A DNA stretch of 39,089 nucleotides from a virus. The notes below the pieces were generated by a model. That model was not told the DNA's origin. It did no database searches and saw nothing but the letters and a program-made list of their open reading frames with translations. The position numbers and the translations under genes were made by a program. The number at the start of each line of letters is the position of its first letter. The stretch's first letter is position 1. The stretch lies in IMG/VR virus record IMGVR_UViG_3300020215_000884, positions 1 to 39,089 of that record. One strand, 5' to 3'. Of this stretch, positions 20,619 to 33,773 are shown piece after piece.

Positions 20619-20812
20619 CACTTCCGGTCCAGAAAGTGCTGGCTGGTGCCGTCATTCAGCGTCCTCACGCCAACGAAGTATGGCTTGCCCGATGCGACGA
20701 CGAAGTTTTTGGTGTTCAGCTCGGCAGCGTAAGCGATCAGCGTGTCGATCGTGACCTTGCCTGGCCTTTGGGGCTGGCGGCCGAAGAGCGGGTTAGTTGG
20801 CTGGACGGTCAT
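20618..20812 (-). CDS. Hypothetical protein, 64 aa
   Basis: The start MTVQPTNPLFGRQPQRPGK is followed by a small alpha/beta stretch (VTIDTLIAYAAELNTKNFVV, SGKPYFVGVRTLNDG). The ATG at 20812 is preceded by AAGGCAC and lies within the 3' end of the replication gene (20-base overlap). I do not recognise it. It sits at the join between replication and packaging genes, where late regulators often lie, but it has no visible DNA-binding motif. Confidence 0.5.
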   Translation of the reverse strand: MTVQPTNPLFGRQPQRPGKVTIDTLIAYAAELNTKNFVVASGKPYFVGVRTLNDGTSQHFLDRK

Positions 20813-21344
20813 AGGTGCCTTCGATCAATTTGGTGAACCTGCTGGGCTGAAGGAGGAAGTCGAAGTCGGCGCGCCATCCCCGGTCGTTTTCGCCGCGGAG
20901 GAACGGCGAGCGCTCCACCGCCGAGATGGCCTCGGTGAAGTCGTCGATGCTGTGCTGGCGGATTCGGGCCACGAGCTTTCGGCGCCGCTCCGGCGTCATC
21001 TTCGCCTTCGGCAGGCCCTGGCGGCCGGCCATGTCGTTCCAGACCTCCAAAACATGTTCGGGGAGGAGGGTCGGGGGCGCCTCGGCGCCATCCTCCCCGG
21101 AATGATCGGAACGATCATGGAGGGGAGGAGCGGGGGGGATTAGAATATTATCATTAAGGGGGGGTGTTACGTCACGCGTTACGTCACGGCCGTTACGCTT
21201 GGCTTTCTTCCTCTCGCGGTAGTTCGCCTGGCGCACGGCGGCAGAAGAGCGCGCCGGCTCCATCGCCTCGGCTAGCTCAGCCGCGTCCTCCAGAGTCAGT
21301 CCCTTCGCGGCGAGAAGGCGTAGAGCGGCGGCGTTGAGGCTCAC
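20793..21344 (-). CDS. Phage replication protein (O/DnaT-like), carries candidate origin
   Basis: The 183-residue protein has a short N-terminal helical domain (about 1-35), a basic segment (RQANYRERKKAKRNGRD), a Pro-rich linker, and a conserved C-terminal domain (about 98-180: WNDMAGRQGLPKAKMTPER, SAVERSPFLRGENDRGW, ADFDFLLQPSRFTKLIEG). That C-terminal pattern is typical of phage replication proteins that load the host helicase. The linker region of the gene contains an AT-rich stretch and tandem 12-bp repeats (21139-21197), as in lambda O. It overlaps the methyltransferase gene by GTGA. No helicase or polymerase gene is seen in the window, so host enzymes are probably used. Confidence 0.72.
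   Translation of the reverse strand: MSLNAAALRLLAAKGLTLEDAAELAEAMEPARSSAAVRQANYRERKKAKRNGRDVTRDVTPPLNDNILIPPAPPLHDRSDHSGEDGAEAPPTLLPEHVLEVWNDMAGRQGLPKAKMTPERRRKLVARIRQHSIDDFTEAISAVERSPFLRGENDRGWRADFDFLLQPSRFTKLIEGTYDRPAN
21139..21197. other. Candidate replication origin: iterons next to AT-rich stretch inside the replication gene
   Basis: Two adjacent 12-bp direct repeats, GTTACGTCACGC (21166-21177) and GTTACGTCACGG (21178-21189), plus a partial GTTACG (21192-21197), lie beside an AT-rich tract of 19 bases (21139-21157, with 16 A/T) in an otherwise GC-rich gene. The arrangement is like lambda ori, where iterons within the O gene are followed by an AT-rich unwinding region. The repeat also encodes RDVTRDVT, so a protein-level repeat is an alternative explanation. 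Confidence 0.5.
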
Positions 21345-22024
21345 GCCGCCTCTCCGCTGAACATGGTGAGCTGACGTTGGGCATCTTCAATGCGCTTGCA
21401 GGCTATGTCGAAATATTTGGGTTCGCGCTCTATGCCTATAAACTCACGGCCCATCTGGACTGCGGCGACTCCGGTCGTTCCGGAGCCCATGAATGGGTCT
21501 AGGATTGTGCGAGCCGTCGGAAGATGACTAAGCGTCCAGCACATCAGTTTGACAGGCTTCTGGGTTGGGTGGTCGGTGCCGTCGAGCAGCAGCTCAACAC
21601 GATTAACCGTGCAAATTCGGAGTGCGCCGCCGAATGATGTCCACGCCAGTTCTCCGTCGGACTGGTTGATTCTTTGGCCTTTATCCCAGACTAGCCACTT
21701 GCCTGTCGGCGGTAGAAGATCGGCGAAGTAGTTCCCGCCCCAAATAACCGCGCAAGGCGCTGCCGCGAGCACCATGGCAAACGTCTCGGCGTCCGGGCGC
21801 TCTGCGTCCCAGCCTAGGAAGTCGTGCGCCTTCCTGCCGCCATTGCCGCCTGTGGTGCGCTTCTGACCATCCTTGCCGATACCGTAGGGCGGATCGGTCA
21901 CGACAGCATCTGCGGGCTCGAGTGCCGGCAGCACATCCCGACAGTCCCCCAAATACAGCGTTGCCCGCCCGATCACTTCCTTGCGCAATGGGACGAGCGC
22001 CTTTGGCTGAGACGAGGCTGTCAT
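21341..22024 (-). CDS. DNA adenine/cytosine-N4 methyltransferase, beta class
   Basis: At 227 residues the motif order is that of a beta-class enzyme: the catalytic DPPYGIG at residues 44-50 comes before the AdoMet motif FMGSGTTGVAA at about 178-188, with the HPTQKP motif at 152-157. The target-recognition region lies between. No restriction endonuclease is seen nearby, so it is probably an orphan that protects phage DNA or marks regulatory sites. Start and stop overlap neighbouring genes (ATGA and GTGA). The base specificity cannot be read from sequence, though DPPY enzymes are mostly adenine-N6 specific. Confidence 0.9.
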   Translation of the reverse strand: MTASSQPKALVPLRKEVIGRATLYLGDCRDVLPALEPADAVVTDPPYGIGKDGQKRTTGGNGGRKAHDFLGWDAERPDAETFAMVLAAAPCAVIWGGNYFADLLPPTGKWLVWDKGQRINQSDGELAWTSFGGALRICTVNRVELLLDGTDHPTQKPVKLMCWTLSHLPTARTILDPFMGSGTTGVAAVQMGREFIGIEREPKYFDIACKRIEDAQRQLTMFSGEAA

Positions 22025-22287
22025 CGGGCGATGCCTTCGGCCCGCGCTGGTCCGGCTTCGCCCCGAGCCGAATCTTCGTTCGTCTCGGCCATTCGGGGAC
22101 CATCGCTATCGCGGCGACAGTCCCGACACTTCCCGCGCCAGATAGTCCGAAGCCGAAAGCACGCCTCGCAGAAGCCGAGTGAACGCACATTGCGGCCGGG
22201 CCGTCGGTCAGGCGCACCAGCGCCAATTGGGCAGTCCGGTTCGGCGTCAATCAGCCGCAACCACCATTCTTTGGAGCGCGTGGTCAT
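22021..22287 (-). CDS. Small zinc-ribbon-like protein with repeat-derived C-terminus
   Basis: The 88-residue protein has a short Cys pattern in its first 60 residues (CPIG, FCEACF and KCRDC), consistent with one zinc site. The last 30 residues (from about RDSDGPRMAETN) are encoded by repeat copy R2. The ATG at 22287 overlaps the upstream stop, and its stop overlaps the methyltransferase start. The core looks like other small phage zinc proteins of unknown function. The repeat tail is unlikely to be needed for the core fold. Confidence 0.55.
   Translation of the reverse strand: MTTRSKEWWLRLIDAEPDCPIGAGAPDRRPGRNVRSLGFCEACFRLRTIWRGKCRDCRRDSDGPRMAETNEDSARGEAGPARAEGIAR
22026..22114 (+). repeat. 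Dispersed palindromic element, copy R2
   Basis: Plus-strand orientation, antisense to the gene that contains it: GGGCGATGCC start, CGGCTTCGCC hairpin, CCGAG...CTCGG arm closed by an inner CGAA...TTCG stem, and an ATCGCTATCGCGG end. It forms the C-terminal codons of the gene at 22021-22287, in the same frame as antisense copies R7 and R10. Confidence 0.75.
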
Positions 22288-23126
22288 TTGACCTTCGCCG
22301 AGAGGGCGGCAATGAAGGTCATGTCGTTTTCGCCACAGTATCGGCGGAAGGCAGCTTCGTGCAGCTCGCCGGTCAGCATGTCGATGCTGTGGCCGATAGT
22401 GCCGCCCTTCCACGACCCCTTGCGCTCTCCGGTCTCGCCGGAAAACTGGATGTCGAGCGACCGCTGAATTTTGGGCCGACGGAACAGCGAAAGCCATTTG
22501 AACCAGCCCTCGCCGAAGCGCCACTCGCGCTCCTCTATTCTCGTAGTCGCCGCTAAAAGCTCGCCGTCAAAGTCATGAAAGGCGAAGTCGGCGGTTGGGC
22601 ACGCATCTCTAACAGACTCCTCATCCCTGTGCCGTGCCAAAACGCCTTCGGACGACAAGCCGCGCCAAGACCGCTGCGGAATTGTGCCAACGAGTTCGCC
22701 ATTAAGGCCATAGAGGCTGTGTCGGACATGCCGCCACTGCGTCCATGGCAGGAAGCAACCCCAGCGCTGTTCCGTGCTGCTGTCATTCGTGACCCGACCC
22801 AATGAGACGGACAGATGGCCATCGCTGTAGGTGAAGCCGTATTCGCGCGGACCAGCATCCCAGTAGCCGCTATCCGGTCCTCTCGACCACTCATAACGAG
22901 AAGTGTCCACCCAGTGGCGCCAAGGCTTGATCAGCGCAGGCAGGGCCGTGATCAGGGTATGGCCGAAGCCGCTGAATCTGAGGGTGCAGACCGGAGACTC
23001 GTCGCCGTCTCCGGAGTTGAGAACGATGGCCAGGGGCCGATAGCCGCGATGGTCGCGTGCGTAGGTGAAAGGACCAAAGTTGTGGTCGTTGTCGCTCCAG
23101 CGGCGACGGTTCGCGGCGCTAGTCAT
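22284..23126 (-). CDS. Hypothetical phage protein, 280 aa
   Basis: The start at 23126 follows AAGGAGC with nine bases spacing. The protein is rich in Trp, Arg and Tyr (for example WSDNDHNFGPFTYARDHRGY, LPALIKPWRHWVDTSRYEW) and ends with a compact region around KWLSLFRRPKIQRSLDIQF and GSWKGGTIGHSIDML. No membrane segment or catalytic signature was recognised. It is in the leftward early operon between the replication/methyltransferase genes and RusA. It looks like a single folded cytoplasmic protein of unknown function. Confidence 0.65.
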   Translation of the reverse strand: MTSAANRRRWSDNDHNFGPFTYARDHRGYRPLAIVLNSGDGDESPVCTLRFSGFGHTLITALPALIKPWRHWVDTSRYEWSRGPDSGYWDAGPREYGFTYSDGHLSVSLGRVTNDSSTEQRWGCFLPWTQWRHVRHSLYGLNGELVGTIPQRSWRGLSSEGVLARHRDEESVRDACPTADFAFHDFDGELLAATTRIEEREWRFGEGWFKWLSLFRRPKIQRSLDIQFSGETGERKGSWKGGTIGHSIDMLTGELHEAAFRRYCGENDMTFIAALSAKVK

Positions 23127-23256
23127 AAGTCCAAGCTCCTTGAATGCGCGAGGGATCGTTACCCGACAGGGCGGAGACCGGAACGGGCTCCGGTGAGCGA
23201 AGCGAACTAGAGCCAGGTGCCGAAGGCACGCGCCCATCCTGATCTTCCAGGCTCAT
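23119..23256 (-). CDS. Repeat-derived mini-ORF, 45 aa, bridging two genes
   Basis: The frame begins MSLEDQDGRVPSAPGS and ends RIQGAWTYD. Its ATG overlaps the stop of the gene at 23253-23552 (ATGA), and its stop lies eight bases inside the next gene's start region (ATGACTAG). Nearly all of it is repeat copy R3, read in the same frame as R1, R4 and R6. It is unlikely to have a specific fold. It may simply be the readable trace of a repeat insertion that keeps the operon translated through the gap of about 125 bases. Confidence 0.35.
   Translation of the reverse strand: MSLEDQDGRVPSAPGSSSLRSPEPVPVSALSGNDPSRIQGAWTYD
23147..23238 (-). repeat. Dispersed palindromic element, copy R3
   Basis: Minus-strand orientation: GGGCGCGTGCC start, TGCCTTCGGCA hairpin, GGAG...CTCC arm (compensating the usual CGAG...CTCG) with an inner CCG-TT-CGG, CCC-TGTC-GGG hairpin, and a CTCGCGC end that pairs with the start. 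It fills most of the gap between the neighbouring genes. Confidence 0.7.
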
Positions 23257-25172: not shown

Positions 25173-25589
25173 TCAGGCGGCCTCCCGGATGCCATCGACG
25201 CGGGCCGCCCAGCGGCCGATGAAGGTGACGAGCTGGTCGAAGTTGCAATCCCGCCAGTTGCCGGTGACGCCGTCCTTGATTGCGCGAAACGAGTAGACCT
25301 CGGACGACTTATATTCGCAGCGAACGACGATTACGGTGATGTGGTCAGACAGGCGCGTCAGCGCCTCGAAAGCCCTGCGCTGGCCATCTTTCAGGTCGGC
25401 GGCGCGCTCTTTGAATTCGGTAATCAGGAAGTGGCCGTTGAGCTCAACGAATCCGTCCAGATCGGTCATCGCGATTCCGCGCGGGAAGCACTGAGCGAAA
25501 ACTTCGATGTCGAAGTGCCGGTGATAGTTGAAACAGCCGCTCACCAAGCAATTCCAGGCTATCGGATTGTAGCCGCGGGGAGGTGTCAT
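25173..25589 (-). CDS. Putative PD-(D/E)XK nuclease-like protein, 138 aa
   Basis: The segment MTDLDGFVELNGHFLITEFK (about residues 41-60) has the order D-x-D-G...E-F-K expected of a PD-(D/E)XK active site, where the Asp, Glu and Lys lie on consecutive strands. A helix with DGQRRAFEALTRL and an alternating strand (HITVIVVRCEYK) follow. It could be a Holliday-junction- or Vsr-type nuclease, or an inactive relative. The ATG overlaps the stop of the ParB-methyltransferase gene. Neighbouring recombination genes make a nuclease plausible. Confidence 0.58.
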   Translation of the reverse strand: MTPPRGYNPIAWNCLVSGCFNYHRHFDIEVFAQCFPRGIAMTDLDGFVELNGHFLITEFKERAADLKDGQRRAFEALTRLSDHITVIVVRCEYKSSEVYSFRAIKDGVTGNWRDCNFDQLVTFIGRWAARVDGIREAA

Positions 25590-26734
25590 TGACGTACCTC
25601 CACGACGAAACCGGCATCGGCAAAGTGGGCAGTGAACGTCTGGAGCCGAGAGCCAAAATAGAAGAAAGCCTGCCCTTGAGTCGGCGCGGCCACCCTGCCG
25701 TCAGGCGAGGTGAATTTGATCCTGCCGCGTGTGAAGCAGATCGCCGTCGCCGCTTTGGCGAGCTTCTGGAACCACGCGGTATCCGTGTAATTGTGGGTGA
25801 GCATGATCGCCTCGGAAACGCGACCCGCGCCGCGCTCGGCAATCATTTTATCCGCGAAGTCGCCGATGGCCGGTTGGGCGTAAGGCGGGTTGAGCCACAC
25901 CTTTCCGCACCACTCCTGCGCCAAGCCATTGTCGGCTTCAGTGAAGAAGGTCTTCGCCTTGACGATGCGCTGCGCTTCCGGGTGGCTAGCCGGGTCGACC
26001 TGGATGGTGCCGAGCACCTTGCGCGCCAGCTCGATATACTCTGGCGGCGTGAACCATTCGTTGTTGCCGGTGAAGCTGGTGCGGTTGACGATCTTCTGCT
26101 CGACGGCTTCGGCCTGTTCCTCTTGCGGAAGGCGCGCAATCTCGGCAGCCGCGGAAACCGTTATCTCATCACGCTCGACGGCCTGAACCAATTCAGGAAC
26201 ACCATCTCGTTCTACCTTCCGGGCGCGCTGAATGCTGTCGACGCTCACATTCAAGAGCGCCGCGGCTTCAGCCTGCGTCGGGACATTTGCCGCAATTGCG
26301 GTATTTTCCGGGCGCCCCTTTGGGAGTCTCGCTATGCGCGTCCCGACCATCGCCCGCTGACTTTCCGACAAATGACGTCGGGCGAGGTTCTTGGCGATGA
26401 CGAAATCAAGGGGCTTGGAGCCTTCGTACTCGACGCGCGGATATTCAATTCCGAGATCGCGCGCCGCCATGTAGCGGTTGCGGCCGTCCAGAATCGTGTC
26501 GCCAATGAAGACGATGGGCTCGAGAACGCCGTTCTTCGCGATGTCGGCTTTCAGCTCCTCGAATGCGGCACCTTCGAGCCACGGGAACAGCTCGGCATAT
26601 TCGTGAAACTTTACGCCGACCGCGGGGACGCGCTCCATGCGCAAGGGATGAGCGGCTTCGACCGAGACCGCTTGCGGGCTCGGGTCCGGAGGACCGCCAG
26701 CCCGGTCCCCGAAGGGGATGCGCCCGGCCTCCAT
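25586..26734 (-). CDS. ParB-like domain fused to Dam-type DNA adenine methyltransferase
   Basis: This is a 382-residue fusion. Residues 1-33 are encoded by repeat copy R4. A ParB/Srx-type nucleotide-binding domain follows (about 36-125) with the signature ILDGRNRYMAA at about 81-91, then an HTH-like region (about 150-205, TQAEAAALLNVSVDSIQRAR). The C-terminal part (about 222-382) is a phage Dam-family adenine methyltransferase with NEWFTPPEY (225-233), VDPASHPEAQ and the catalytic LNPPY (281-285). ParB domains in such fusions may guide DNA binding. It probably methylates phage DNA. Start at 26734 has a purine-rich AGGGGAGGGGG upstream; an ATG at 26638 would exclude the repeat. Confidence 0.85.
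   Translation of the reverse strand: MEAGRIPFGDRAGGPPDPSPQAVSVEAAHPLRMERVPAVGVKFHEYAELFPWLEGAAFEELKADIAKNGVLEPIVFIGDTILDGRNRYMAARDLGIEYPRVEYEGSKPLDFVIAKNLARRHLSESQRAMVGTRIARLPKGRPENTAIAANVPTQAEAAALLNVSVDSIQRARKVERDGVPELVQAVERDEITVSAAAEIARLPQEEQAEAVEQKIVNRTSFTGNNEWFTPPEYIELARKVLGTIQVDPASHPEAQRIVKAKTFFTEADNGLAQEWCGKVWLNPPYAQPAIGDFADKMIAERGAGRVSEAIMLTHNYTDTAWFQKLAKAATAICFTRGRIKFTSPDGRVAAPTQGQAFFYFGSRLQTFTAHFADAGFVVEVRQ
26641..26730 (-). repeat. Dispersed palindromic element, copy R4
   Basis: Minus-strand orientation: GGGCGC start, hairpin CCCC-TTCG-GGGG, hairpin GGTCC-TCC-GGACC, CCGAG...CTCGG arm with inner CCGC-AA-GCGG, and a GCGC end. Stem sequences differ from other copies but keep pairing. 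It supplies residues 2-31 or so of the ParB-methyltransferase fusion in the same frame as R1, R3 and R6. Confidence 0.7.
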
Positions 26735-27438: not shown

Positions 27439-27629
27439 GCCGCAGCCTTCTCCGGCTGGTACTCGGCCATGAAGCGGCGAACACGGTCCTCTGTCTCCGG
27501 CCAAAGACGACGGCCGGTGCGAAGTTGGCGGACGAATTTCCAGTCGTTGACCGCCAACCGACCGAACGTGCTGTCCGGCATTCCGTGCTGGGCGGTGAAC
27601 GCTTGAATGTCAGCGAGTAGCGTCTGCAT
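27435..27629 (-). CDS. Cro-like transcriptional regulator, first gene of the left operon
   Basis: The 64 residues from the ATG at 27629 (MQTLLADIQAFTAQHGM, STFGRLAVNDWKFVRQL, PETEDRVRRFMAEY) resemble small phage HTH regulators found opposite CI-type repressors. It is the first gene after the left promoter, whose TATACT -10 box lies 11-16 bases before the ATG. The mRNA would therefore begin 3-5 bases before the start, almost leaderless, and no ribosome binding site is present. An operator with GCGGGA-N4-TCCCGT overlaps the promoter. A Cro role (turning off the repressor gene) is inferred from position and size. Confidence 0.65.
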   Translation of the reverse strand: MQTLLADIQAFTAQHGMPDSTFGRLAVNDWKFVRQLRTGRRLWPETEDRVRRFMAEYQPEKAAA

Positions 27630-27639
27630 GGGGGCGGAT

Positions 27640-27668
27640 AGTATACGGGACGTGTCCCGCACGCAAGC
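27640..27668 (-). promoter_or_regulatory. Left early promoter with operator O1
   Basis: The -10 box is TATACT at 27645-27640. A weak -35 (GCTTGC or CTTGCG) lies at about 27668-27662. The spacer is filled by the operator GCGGGA-CACG-TCCCGT (27660-27645 on this strand), so a bound repressor would block the promoter. Predicted start of transcription is about 27633, next to the Cro-like ATG at 27629. Confidence 0.6.
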
Positions 27669-27675
27669 GCCTTAT

Positions 27676-27691
27676 GCGGGAACCTTCCCTA
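27676..27691. promoter_or_regulatory. Operator O2 in the switch region
   Basis: GCGGGA-ACCT-TCCCTA has one perfect half-site and one with two changes relative to GCGGGA-N4-TCCCGC. Its centre lies 31 bp from O1 and 20 bp from O3, between the divergent promoters, as expected for a weaker middle site in a lambda-like switch. Confidence 0.5.
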
Positions 27692-27693
27692 AA

Positions 27694-27722
27694 TTGCGGG
27701 AAATACCCCGACGTCCGATAAT
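27694..27722 (+). promoter_or_regulatory. Repressor maintenance promoter with operator O3, leaderless transcript
   Basis: TTGCGG (27694-27699) and GATAAT (27717-27722) are 17 bp apart. The predicted transcript start falls at about 27729-27730, on the ATG of the repressor gene, so the mRNA would be leaderless as for lambda cI from PRM. Operator O3 (GCGGGA-AATA-CCCCGA, 27696-27711) fills the spacer and would let the repressor or Cro-like protein shut it off. Confidence 0.62.
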
Positions 27723-27729
27723 GGCTCGC

Positions 27730-28467
27730 ATGCCCGCCAGCGACGTAATCGACTATCCGAGACTCCGGCGATTGGTGCGCGATCGCGTCGGCGGGGTCGG
27801 TCAGCCATCGCCAAGAAAGGCGTCCTTAGCGGCGACACGCGGCAAGAACGAGGACATGGTCCGCAACCTGCTTGATGGAACAGATTCCTCCGTGGACGCT
27901 GTGTTTGGCCTTTGCGACTTTCTGAAAATCCCGCTGCCCCAAGTGATCAAAGCGATAGCCGGGGAGCGCGTCCCGGCAAGGACGTGGCTAACGGTGACGG
28001 GCTACGTCCAGGCGGGATCGTGGCGAGAGCCCGTAGACGACAATCCAGACGAGATGTTCCAAGTTGAGGTGGAGGAATTGCCCATCTATGATGGACAACA
28101 CGGGCTATTAGTCCGCGGTCATTCGATGAATAAAATATTTCCTCCAGCCACCGTGCTGCGGTGCGTGGATCTGATCCTAGCCGGCACAGATATCGAAATT
28201 GAGCTTGGCGACTATGTGATTGCCGAGCGAAAGAGGGCTGGCCTTCGAGAGCTCACATGCAAGCGCCTTCAACGAGCGGCAGACGGCTCATGGGAGTTGG
28301 CATCAGAATCGACGCTTCCAGAATTTAGGGACCCCATTCCAGTGGGGCTGCCAAGTGAGGGCTATGACGACATGGGCGAAGATGAAACGCGCGTCCGCGC
28401 CATAGTCATTGATGCCTATCTACCGCTTCCCCGCCGACCGCGGCGGCCCCTGCCAGATGAAGGCTAA
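27730..28467 (+). CDS. cI: CI/LexA-type repressor with S24 self-cleaving domain
   Basis: The 245-residue lysogeny regulator has an N-terminal HTH domain (about 5-75; DMVRNLLDGTDSSVDAVFGL). The S24 peptidase domain has the usual VTGYVQAGSW start, with A95-G96 as likely RecA-stimulated cleavage site, catalytic S132 in RGHSMNK and K178 in LTCKRL. It should repress both early promoters through the GCGGGA-N4-TCCCGC operators and be inactivated in the SOS response. I chose the ATG at 27730 because the promoter's transcript would start there; an ATG at 27721 lies inside the -10 box. The downstream lipoprotein gene overlaps its end. Confidence 0.92.
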   Translation: MPASDVIDYPRLRRLVRDRVGGVGQPSPRKASLAATRGKNEDMVRNLLDGTDSSVDAVFGLCDFLKIPLPQVIKAIAGERVPARTWLTVTGYVQAGSWREPVDDNPDEMFQVEVEELPIYDGQHGLLVRGHSMNKIFPPATVLRCVDLILAGTDIEIELGDYVIAERKRAGLRELTCKRLQRAADGSWELASESTLPEFRDPIPVGLPSEGYDDMGEDETRVRAIVIDAYLPLPRRPRRPLPDEG

Positions 28468-32553: not shown

Positions 32554-33773
32554 AGCCCAATCCCGGCAACCCTCCCGGGCTTCGGCGGCCGATGATGGCT
32601 TCGCCTGCCGAGCGGTTGCACGAACAGGGGCTCGACGTCGAAAGCGTCGACGAAATTCTCGAAGGCCGGCGCGGGCAGCCGGGCGTTCCAACCCGCGTCG
32701 ATCCTCCCCGGCTCCCTGACACCCCCATGTTCCCGGAGCCGGGGATCTACTTCAACATGCCGGATGCGGAATACCACGCCATACCGGCTCTGTCGAACAG
32801 CGGGATCAAGTATCTCGCCTCGTCGCCGATGCTGTTCTGGGCGAAGTCCTGGATGAACCCCAATCGGGAGGAAGAGGACCGCGAGCATCAAATCCTCGGT
32901 CGCGCCTATCACTGCCGCCTCATGGAAGGGCTGGCAGCGTTCGAGGCCCGCTTCGCCGTCCTGCCCGACAAGGCCGAGTACAAGGACTTGCTCGTCACGG
33001 ACGACGATATCCGGAAAGCGTTGAAGGACGCGGGCGAGAAGCCCCGGAGCGGCAACAAGAGCGAGCGCATCCTCCAGCTTCTGGGCGTCGATCCGTCGGC
33101 CAACATCTGGGACTCCATCGTCGCCGAGCACGCCTTCGCCAACGAGGGCAAGGCGTACATCACGGCTGAGCAATGGAAGCGGCTCGAGATTGCCGCCTAT
33201 ATGATCGACCGCGACCCGGAGCTGTCCAAGGCGTTCAGCGGCGGCCATCCGGAGGTGGCCCTGTTCTGGTACTGCCCGACCACCGGCGTGCCGATGAAGG
33301 CGCGGGTCGACTATCTGAAGACCCGCGCAATGATCGACCTAAAGAGCTTCGGCAACCAGCGCGAGCGGAGCATCGAGCGGGCCATCGCCTATGAGATCGC
33401 AGGCTATCACTACAATATCCAGCCGAGCGTCTACTTCGAGGGCGCCGCCGAAGTCCGCAAGCTGGTGCGCGAGTGCGGGGCCTCCGTGATTCACGGACTG
33501 GACGACCCATCTTGGGCGCTGAGATGGGCGCAGCATGCCGAGCCCGACAGGTGGCTTTGGGTCTTCCAGCAGAAGGGCCCGGCGCCCGTGACTCGCGGCC
33601 TCTGGTATCCCCGGGCCGGCACCACGAAGACGATCACCGACGAAATTGTCGCTCAGCAGAAGCGCAAGTTTGTCCGCCACGTCGAGATGTTCGGCGCCGA
33701 GCCGTGGTTGGATATCGCGCCGATCTACGACCTTGCCGACGAAGACATTCCCCCATTCGCAACGGAGATTTGA
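32550..33773 (+). CDS. RecE-like PD-(D/E)XK exonuclease
   Basis: The 407-residue protein contains the family start PEPGIYFNMPDAEYHAIPAL with LSNSGIKYLASSP, then LGRAYHCRLME (H121), and the active-site strand pair ARVDYLKTRAMIDLKSFG, giving D254 and D263-x-K265. This is the exodeoxyribonuclease VIII-type (RecE/DUF3799-like) nuclease that resects double-stranded ends in 5'-3' direction. It is followed directly by recT, forming a two-component annealing recombination system. The ATG at 32550 overlaps the previous stop. Confidence 0.85.
   Translation: MKPNPGNPPGLRRPMMASPAERLHEQGLDVESVDEILEGRRGQPGVPTRVDPPRLPDTPMFPEPGIYFNMPDAEYHAIPALSNSGIKYLASSPMLFWAKSWMNPNREEEDREHQILGRAYHCRLMEGLAAFEARFAVLPDKAEYKDLLVTDDDIRKALKDAGEKPRSGNKSERILQLLGVDPSANIWDSIVAEHAFANEGKAYITAEQWKRLEIAAYMIDRDPELSKAFSGGHPEVALFWYCPTTGVPMKARVDYLKTRAMIDLKSFGNQRERSIERAIAYEIAGYHYNIQPSVYFEGAAEVRKLVRECGASVIHGLDDPSWALRWAQHAEPDRWLWVFQQKGPAPVTRGLWYPRAGTTKTITDEIVAQQKRKFVRHVEMFGAEPWLDIAPIYDLADEDIPPFATEI

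Follow-up and report, generated by a model that had tools for sequence, protein, structure and literature searches.

Where on its genome would the virus behind IMG/VR record IMGVR_UViG_3300020215_000884 begin to replicate its DNA? To our knowledge, few phage origins have been mapped experimentally, and an earlier note on this DNA had proposed a candidate origin within a replication gene. The window, as we call the whole stretch analysed here (39,089 nucleotides, positions 1 to 39,089 of the record), looks like the DNA of a temperate phage, with repressor, integrase, RecE/RecT-like, portal, and head closure genes. Our answer is that the proposed site is very probably a replication origin of the lambda, P22, and SPP1 type, placed within the gene that encodes its initiator. 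The candidate has gained support from the linker repeats of relatives, which occupy several codon phases and keep a constant place.

Repeats and tract in the initiator gene

The initiator gene (20793..21344, minus strand) encodes 183 aa from a GTG start and overlaps the upstream methyltransferase gene by 4 nt. In a PHROGs scan, its C-terminal half matched both phrog_345, “replication initiation O-like” (4.5e-22), and phrog_10469, “DnaD-like helicase loader” (2.2e-21). Similarly, P22 gp18 is homologous to the C-terminal part (tblastn 28.6%, E 2e-5), and 66 viral relatives of the gene were found. The earlier description of the gene as O/DnaT-like therefore holds for this half of the protein but not for the other, where an O-type N-terminal DNA-binding domain is absent: the phrog_345 match begins only at profile position 127 of 297, the frame upstream of the start stays open for just 14 further codons (an open frame of 197 aa), and AlphaFold places only helices 3-13 and 18-51 there. 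The same model, built with 22 sequences and with a mean pLDDT of 81, has disorder at about residues 52-94 and becomes confident and helical from about residue 91-95, with pLDDT mostly >90. Together with the PHROG matches, this delimits a C-terminal domain with a GWRADFDF motif (codons 94-183; 20796..21065, minus strand), which is the proposed helicase-recruiting part. A gene with the same N-terminus and another C-terminal domain (L071) gave a poorer model (mean pLDDT 66), in which the long helix is split into 18-29 and 37-54.

The matches of the initiator model among viral predicted structures are phage replication proteins. A fold search of the PDB returned no solved structure resembling the model (best E 3.5), and the C-domain profile had no sequence match there. 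For the N-terminus, a profile found nothing credible in Pfam or PDB, and residues 1-62 matched no named phage by tblastn. TALE-repeat matches were set aside as sums across a 14-residue stretch with no stretch passing alone, and a bZIP reading of the basic helix, considered for its resemblance to Pap1/Yap1, was not supported, as neither a Pfam scan of 12 N-termini nor a PDB profile search gave a bZIP match. A scan of genome contigs with the N-terminus matched 589 stretches, with 0 confirmed. Searches of alphaproteobacterial genomes returned the C-domain in 13/385 and the N-terminus in 21/385, the latter hits weak and mostly partial, and both were kept out of the statistics; Pfam PF09681 was found in 14/299 Firmicutes genomes, at loci judged by eye only.

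The proposed iterons lie within this gene at 21165..21197 (minus strand): five GTNAC boxes that overlap one another, of which four are the complete palindrome CGTNACG. They start at 21166, 21171, 21178, 21183, and 21192, and their coding strand reads CGT AAC GGC CGT GAC GTA ACG CGT GAC GTA ACA, that is, RNGRDVTRDVT. Five GTNAC within 60 nt make this the densest place in the window, the next separate place having 2, and when the full window was simulated 200 times under an order-2 Markov model, the counts reached at most 3 GTNAC and 2 CGTNACG, against 5 and 4 observed. A generic repeat test against synonymous permutation fell short of significance for the window gene by itself (0.063) and for its near-identical copy, L232 (0.072); a GTNAC-specific statistic was significant for that copy (p 0.007). 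Please note that this copy (L002/L232) is the only near-identical relative, and it is too close for judging synonymous drift in the window boxes. Near the left end of the window, 944-985 holds ACTAAATTTAGTC and another copy of GACTAAATTT, a palindromic repeat that is perhaps an operator.

Beside the boxes is an A/T-rich 19-mer at 21139..21157 (minus strand), the proposed DNA unwinding element. It is the sole 19-mer in the window attaining 17 A/T (17/19), and its codons end in A or T in 6/7 cases, versus 43/183 across the gene (hypergeometric 7e-4). The tract sits between two runs of seven C (21132..21164, minus strand), a layout that is nearly identical in L003, L085, L089, and L050, whose AATGATATATATTCTAAC tract is also present in L233. 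Both sets of coordinates given earlier for the adjoining repeats and tract, 21165-21197 and 21139-21157, proved exact and fall inside the minus-strand gene; because the model puts disorder at about residues 52-94, both elements lie in linker-coding DNA, as had been claimed. A second A/T-rich spot, at 28117-28150 (16/19 A/T at 28121), lies toward the end of the repressor-like gene and is without boxes.

The basic motif and its boxes

The proposed reader of the boxes is the basic end of the N-terminal helix (codons 32-50, RSSAAVRQANYRERKKAKR; 21195..21251, minus strand), as suggested by the AlphaFold helix at 18-51 and by genes selected through the peptide RQxRYRERK. An Arg/Lys-rich segment comes shortly ahead of the repeats in 10/10 of the compact N-termini first compared (the window and nine relatives), and then in further ones; the N-terminus of L006 is different and longer than the compact type. 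For a selection blind to the boxes, viral contigs were scanned for the back-translated RQxRYRERK. This gave 43 loci, or 34 after removal of 9 duplicates, and 6 more were dropped for having <60 nt of downstream frame, leaving 28. Clusters of four or more GTNAC within 60 nt stood downstream of the motif in 20/28 and upstream in 1/28, and 18/28 genes reached p<=0.05 against synonymous shuffles. Two of the six loci left out for their short downstream frame (L403 and L407) have the cluster upstream instead. The C-terminal domains vary among the RQxRYRERK proteins.

When 146 boxes were collected from the 22 genes that have three or more GTNAC pentamers, their consensus was CGTNACG and their spacings peaked at 5, 7, and 11-12 nt. 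Within the set defined by its C-domain, at least four GTNAC were present in 9/11 genes with the basic motif and 8/67 without it; the regular expression behind these counts was partly written after the sequences had been viewed, and the peptide-only selection is the test relied on. Another basic region goes with another box in L233 and L251, which carry RRRAYDRDRKR and KRRAWDRERKR and have a different box in common (GGAATTCC/GGAATCCG). CGTTAC boxes also occur in two Clostridia initiators, with RVARYRERQK and RVSRHRQKQK. The position of the A/T-rich stretch is less regular across the wider collection: the lowest-GC 18-mer follows the boxes on their downstream side in 13/13 of the compact-N-terminus set (including the window), and the A/T-richest 18-mer does so in only 8/20 of the wider RQxRYRERK set.

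We lean, by a small measure, toward reading these N-termini as a portable mini-reader: a basic helix of ~20 residues (RQxxYRERK), joined to varied C-domains, would read CGTNACG palindromes that its own gene encodes directly after it, and helix and boxes would change together as a self-matching cassette. In the C-domain family, this cassette would also include the conserved coding-strand C(TRRM)G hairpin, which may serve the host replisome as a place to load onto single-stranded DNA. The putative motif-box rule and the hairpin appear to be the new parts, and a limited literature search, not aimed at these motif letters, found no paper on an RQxxYRERK/CGTNACG link or on the C(TRRM)G hairpin. If the rule holds, the origins of many uncharacterized temperate phages could be read from sequence, and every such origin would bring a testable protein-DNA pair. 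With a DNA reader so small and its sites encoded right behind it, such a replicator would, if true, be compact to an unusual degree, and it would show clearly how a protein and the site it binds can evolve together in one coding sequence.

The site could also be an origin at which a host or other phage protein binds the boxes, leaving the initiator, like DnaD or DnaT, with helicase loading as its sole task. The initiator does lack the O-type DNA-binding domain, and its C-terminal half does match a family named helicase loader; we nonetheless think this unlikely, given that the box sequences of relatives vary in step with their own basic region, a pattern not accounted for by one host protein common to all.

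Constraint on the DNA in relatives

Relatives selected by the C-domain alone comprised 100 loci, which fell to 78 once 11 without an N-terminal part and 11 duplicates had been removed. A repeat cluster in the linker was found at p<=0.05 in 62/78 of these (400 synonymous-codon permutations), with 43/78 exceeding all 400 permutations and 16/78 showing no significant linker cluster. The test is calibrated by control ORFs of the same loci, which reached p<=0.05 in 34/375 cases and p<=0.005 in 3/375 (200 permutations). The clusters start mostly 40-70 codons ahead of the C-domain; their repeat sequence differs by lineage and their position is constant, with GGACAAAAATGTCC in L056 and L057, for example, and CCCGTCACAGTGACACC in L006, where it is used in two reading frames. 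Two initiator-like genes (L103 and L123) each have a TGACGTNAC cluster in the linker and a second, separate one in the N-terminal part; the N-terminal cluster of L123 reads ..VTRDVTLAALLRVW, and L094 and L139 also show an N-terminal cluster.

The same test, applied to phages with annotated origins, was matched by 0/400 permutations both for lambda O (cluster from nt 328, annotated iterons from nt 348) and for P22 gene 18 (cluster from nt 335, annotated rep_origin at nt 341-485), and lambda P and P22 gene 12 were negative. That lambda and P22 have this signal exactly over their origins weighs against the boxes being an operator or partition site of another protein, such as the ParB/Dam-like protein (25586-26734) or the repressor (27607-28467). 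Both of these are encoded nearby, and clustered palindromes are a usual feature of operators and centromeres, but the boxes accompany their own protein's basic motif across different C-terminal domains and their type shifts with the basic region (L233 and L251); we judge such a site very improbable.

Boxes in relatives fall outside the V-T codon phase in 72/146 cases, and two or more phases are used in 22/22 genes. As the codon phase varies in this way, it is the DNA at the boxes, rather than the protein, that is conserved. Conservation at the DNA rather than the protein level had been put forward earlier as a check on the candidate, and the permutation excess together with these phases decides it in favor of an origin. 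Least probable of the alternatives, and largely refuted, is a protein feature, with RDVT repeats in a flexible linker and the DNA repetition as a by-product: the two RDVT copies in the window do share one frame and one peptide, and tail-fibre-like genes (L097, L101, L111, and similar) do, by eye, derive the same DNA pattern from VTGDVTG protein repeats, yet the codon phases of relatives, the excess of their linker repeats over synonymous permutation, and the rare codons of the window boxes (2/2 Val codons are GTA, which over 13 window genes makes up 4.6% for Val, and 3/3 Arg codons are CGT, which makes up 8% for Arg) all speak against it. The VTGDVTG genes are a caution for pattern-only searches for origins.

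The hairpin, known origins, and genome context

Between the tract and the C-domain, members of the C-domain family carry a coding-strand hairpin whose loop is C(TRRM)G, with TAAC as the commonest form. Of the CTRRMG hexamers in the 195 nt that lead up to the C-domain, 44/72 have a perfect stem of 6 bp or more, versus 1/49 in the N-terminal part, 0/92 in the C-domain, and 2/2422 in the rest of the same loci; the Fisher value for this enrichment, 1e-72, is overstated, as related loci are not independent. The stems take 33 distinct forms, often two in tandem (loci including L241, L249, L262, L269, and L297). Among the best tetraloops, 30/39 are TRRM and 0/39 are of the complementary type, so that one strand is favored, and 37/39 begin in one codon phase, from which it follows that common descent or protein constraint contributes. 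An unanchored permutation test was passed at 0.05 by 25/78 genes.

The place of this hairpin is taken in the window by a nested inverted repeat at 21091..21129 (minus strand), whose inner stem, ATGATCG/CGATCAT at 21102-21118, lies ~56 nt before the C-domain. This is the same distance as for the family hairpin, with another loop. The single-stranded fold of 21050-21200 has a z of -3.4, with 0/200 shuffles as stable. Searches of Rfam gave no match for ten hairpin loci at the gathering threshold or for window 20700-22100 at E<=0.5. The putative hairpin is possibly a single-strand loading site or an RNA element.

How closely does the locus follow the known in-gene origins? The N-terminus of lambda O is a winged-helix DNA-binding domain, and lambda P, encoded next door to O, is a separate helicase loader. 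The window initiator has a short basic helix in place of the former domain, and whereas lambda has its neighboring P gene, the window yielded no gene for a loader or helicase. The sites differ as well, lambda having four iterons of 18-19 bp and the window five overlapping 7-bp boxes within 33 bp. The likeness lies elsewhere. The literature places lambda ori within gene O (PMC6022878) and describes the origin as ITN1-4 plus an A/T-rich sequence (PMC3349717), and its iterons are annotated in NC_001416; both phages have iterons and an adjoining A/T-rich region in the linker-coding part of the initiator gene, as well as an O-like C-terminal domain. P22 is alike in that its annotated rep_origin inside gene 18 (32840-32984) contains 32914, the position aligned to window residue 51; it differs in its repeats, which are of another sequence, and in its neighboring gene 12, which is DnaB-like. 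According to PMC6316719, oriL of SPP1 has direct repeats and an A/T-rich unwinding element inside gene 38, the gene of the origin-binding protein, which resembles the arrangement in the window; as described there, SPP1 differs in encoding its own helicase loader and helicase and in having a second origin, oriR.

The earlier claim of “the same architecture as lambda ori” consequently survives in part. An in-gene iteron cluster under DNA-level constraint, an A/T tract 3' of the iterons, and an O-like C-domain are shared with the lambda/P22 type; the O-type N-terminus, the 18-19 bp iterons, and the neighboring helicase or loader gene are not. As these three points are defining ones, the locus, to judge by its sequence, is a candidate origin that would work like lambda ori but as a variant with a different reader. 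Several copies of the initiator would use the basic helix to bind the CGTNACG boxes, the adjacent A/T tract would melt, and the C-terminal domain would bring the host helicase DnaB onto the opened strand, with the hairpin between tract and C-domain possibly assisting helicase loading. What the sequences show is the layout of the locus, the constraint on the DNA of relatives, the association of the basic motif with the boxes, and the hairpin of relatives; binding, melting, helicase recruitment, and origin activity are what we infer here.

Use of the host helicase is suggested because a PHROGs scan of 40 window ORFs turned up no gene for a helicase, primase, or loader apart from the loader-like C-domain of the initiator, in a record that may be incomplete; this agrees with the earlier observation that no helicase gene is present. 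The sole “helicase” label, phrog_16, fell on a methyltransferase. The gene at 25586-26734 (minus strand) is an apparent fusion of a ParB-like N-terminal part and a Dam-like adenine methyltransferase. Finally, a short way upstream of the initiator, 22284-23237 (minus strand) matches the CBASS inhibitor Acb3 (Pfam PF25187, 4.1e-89).
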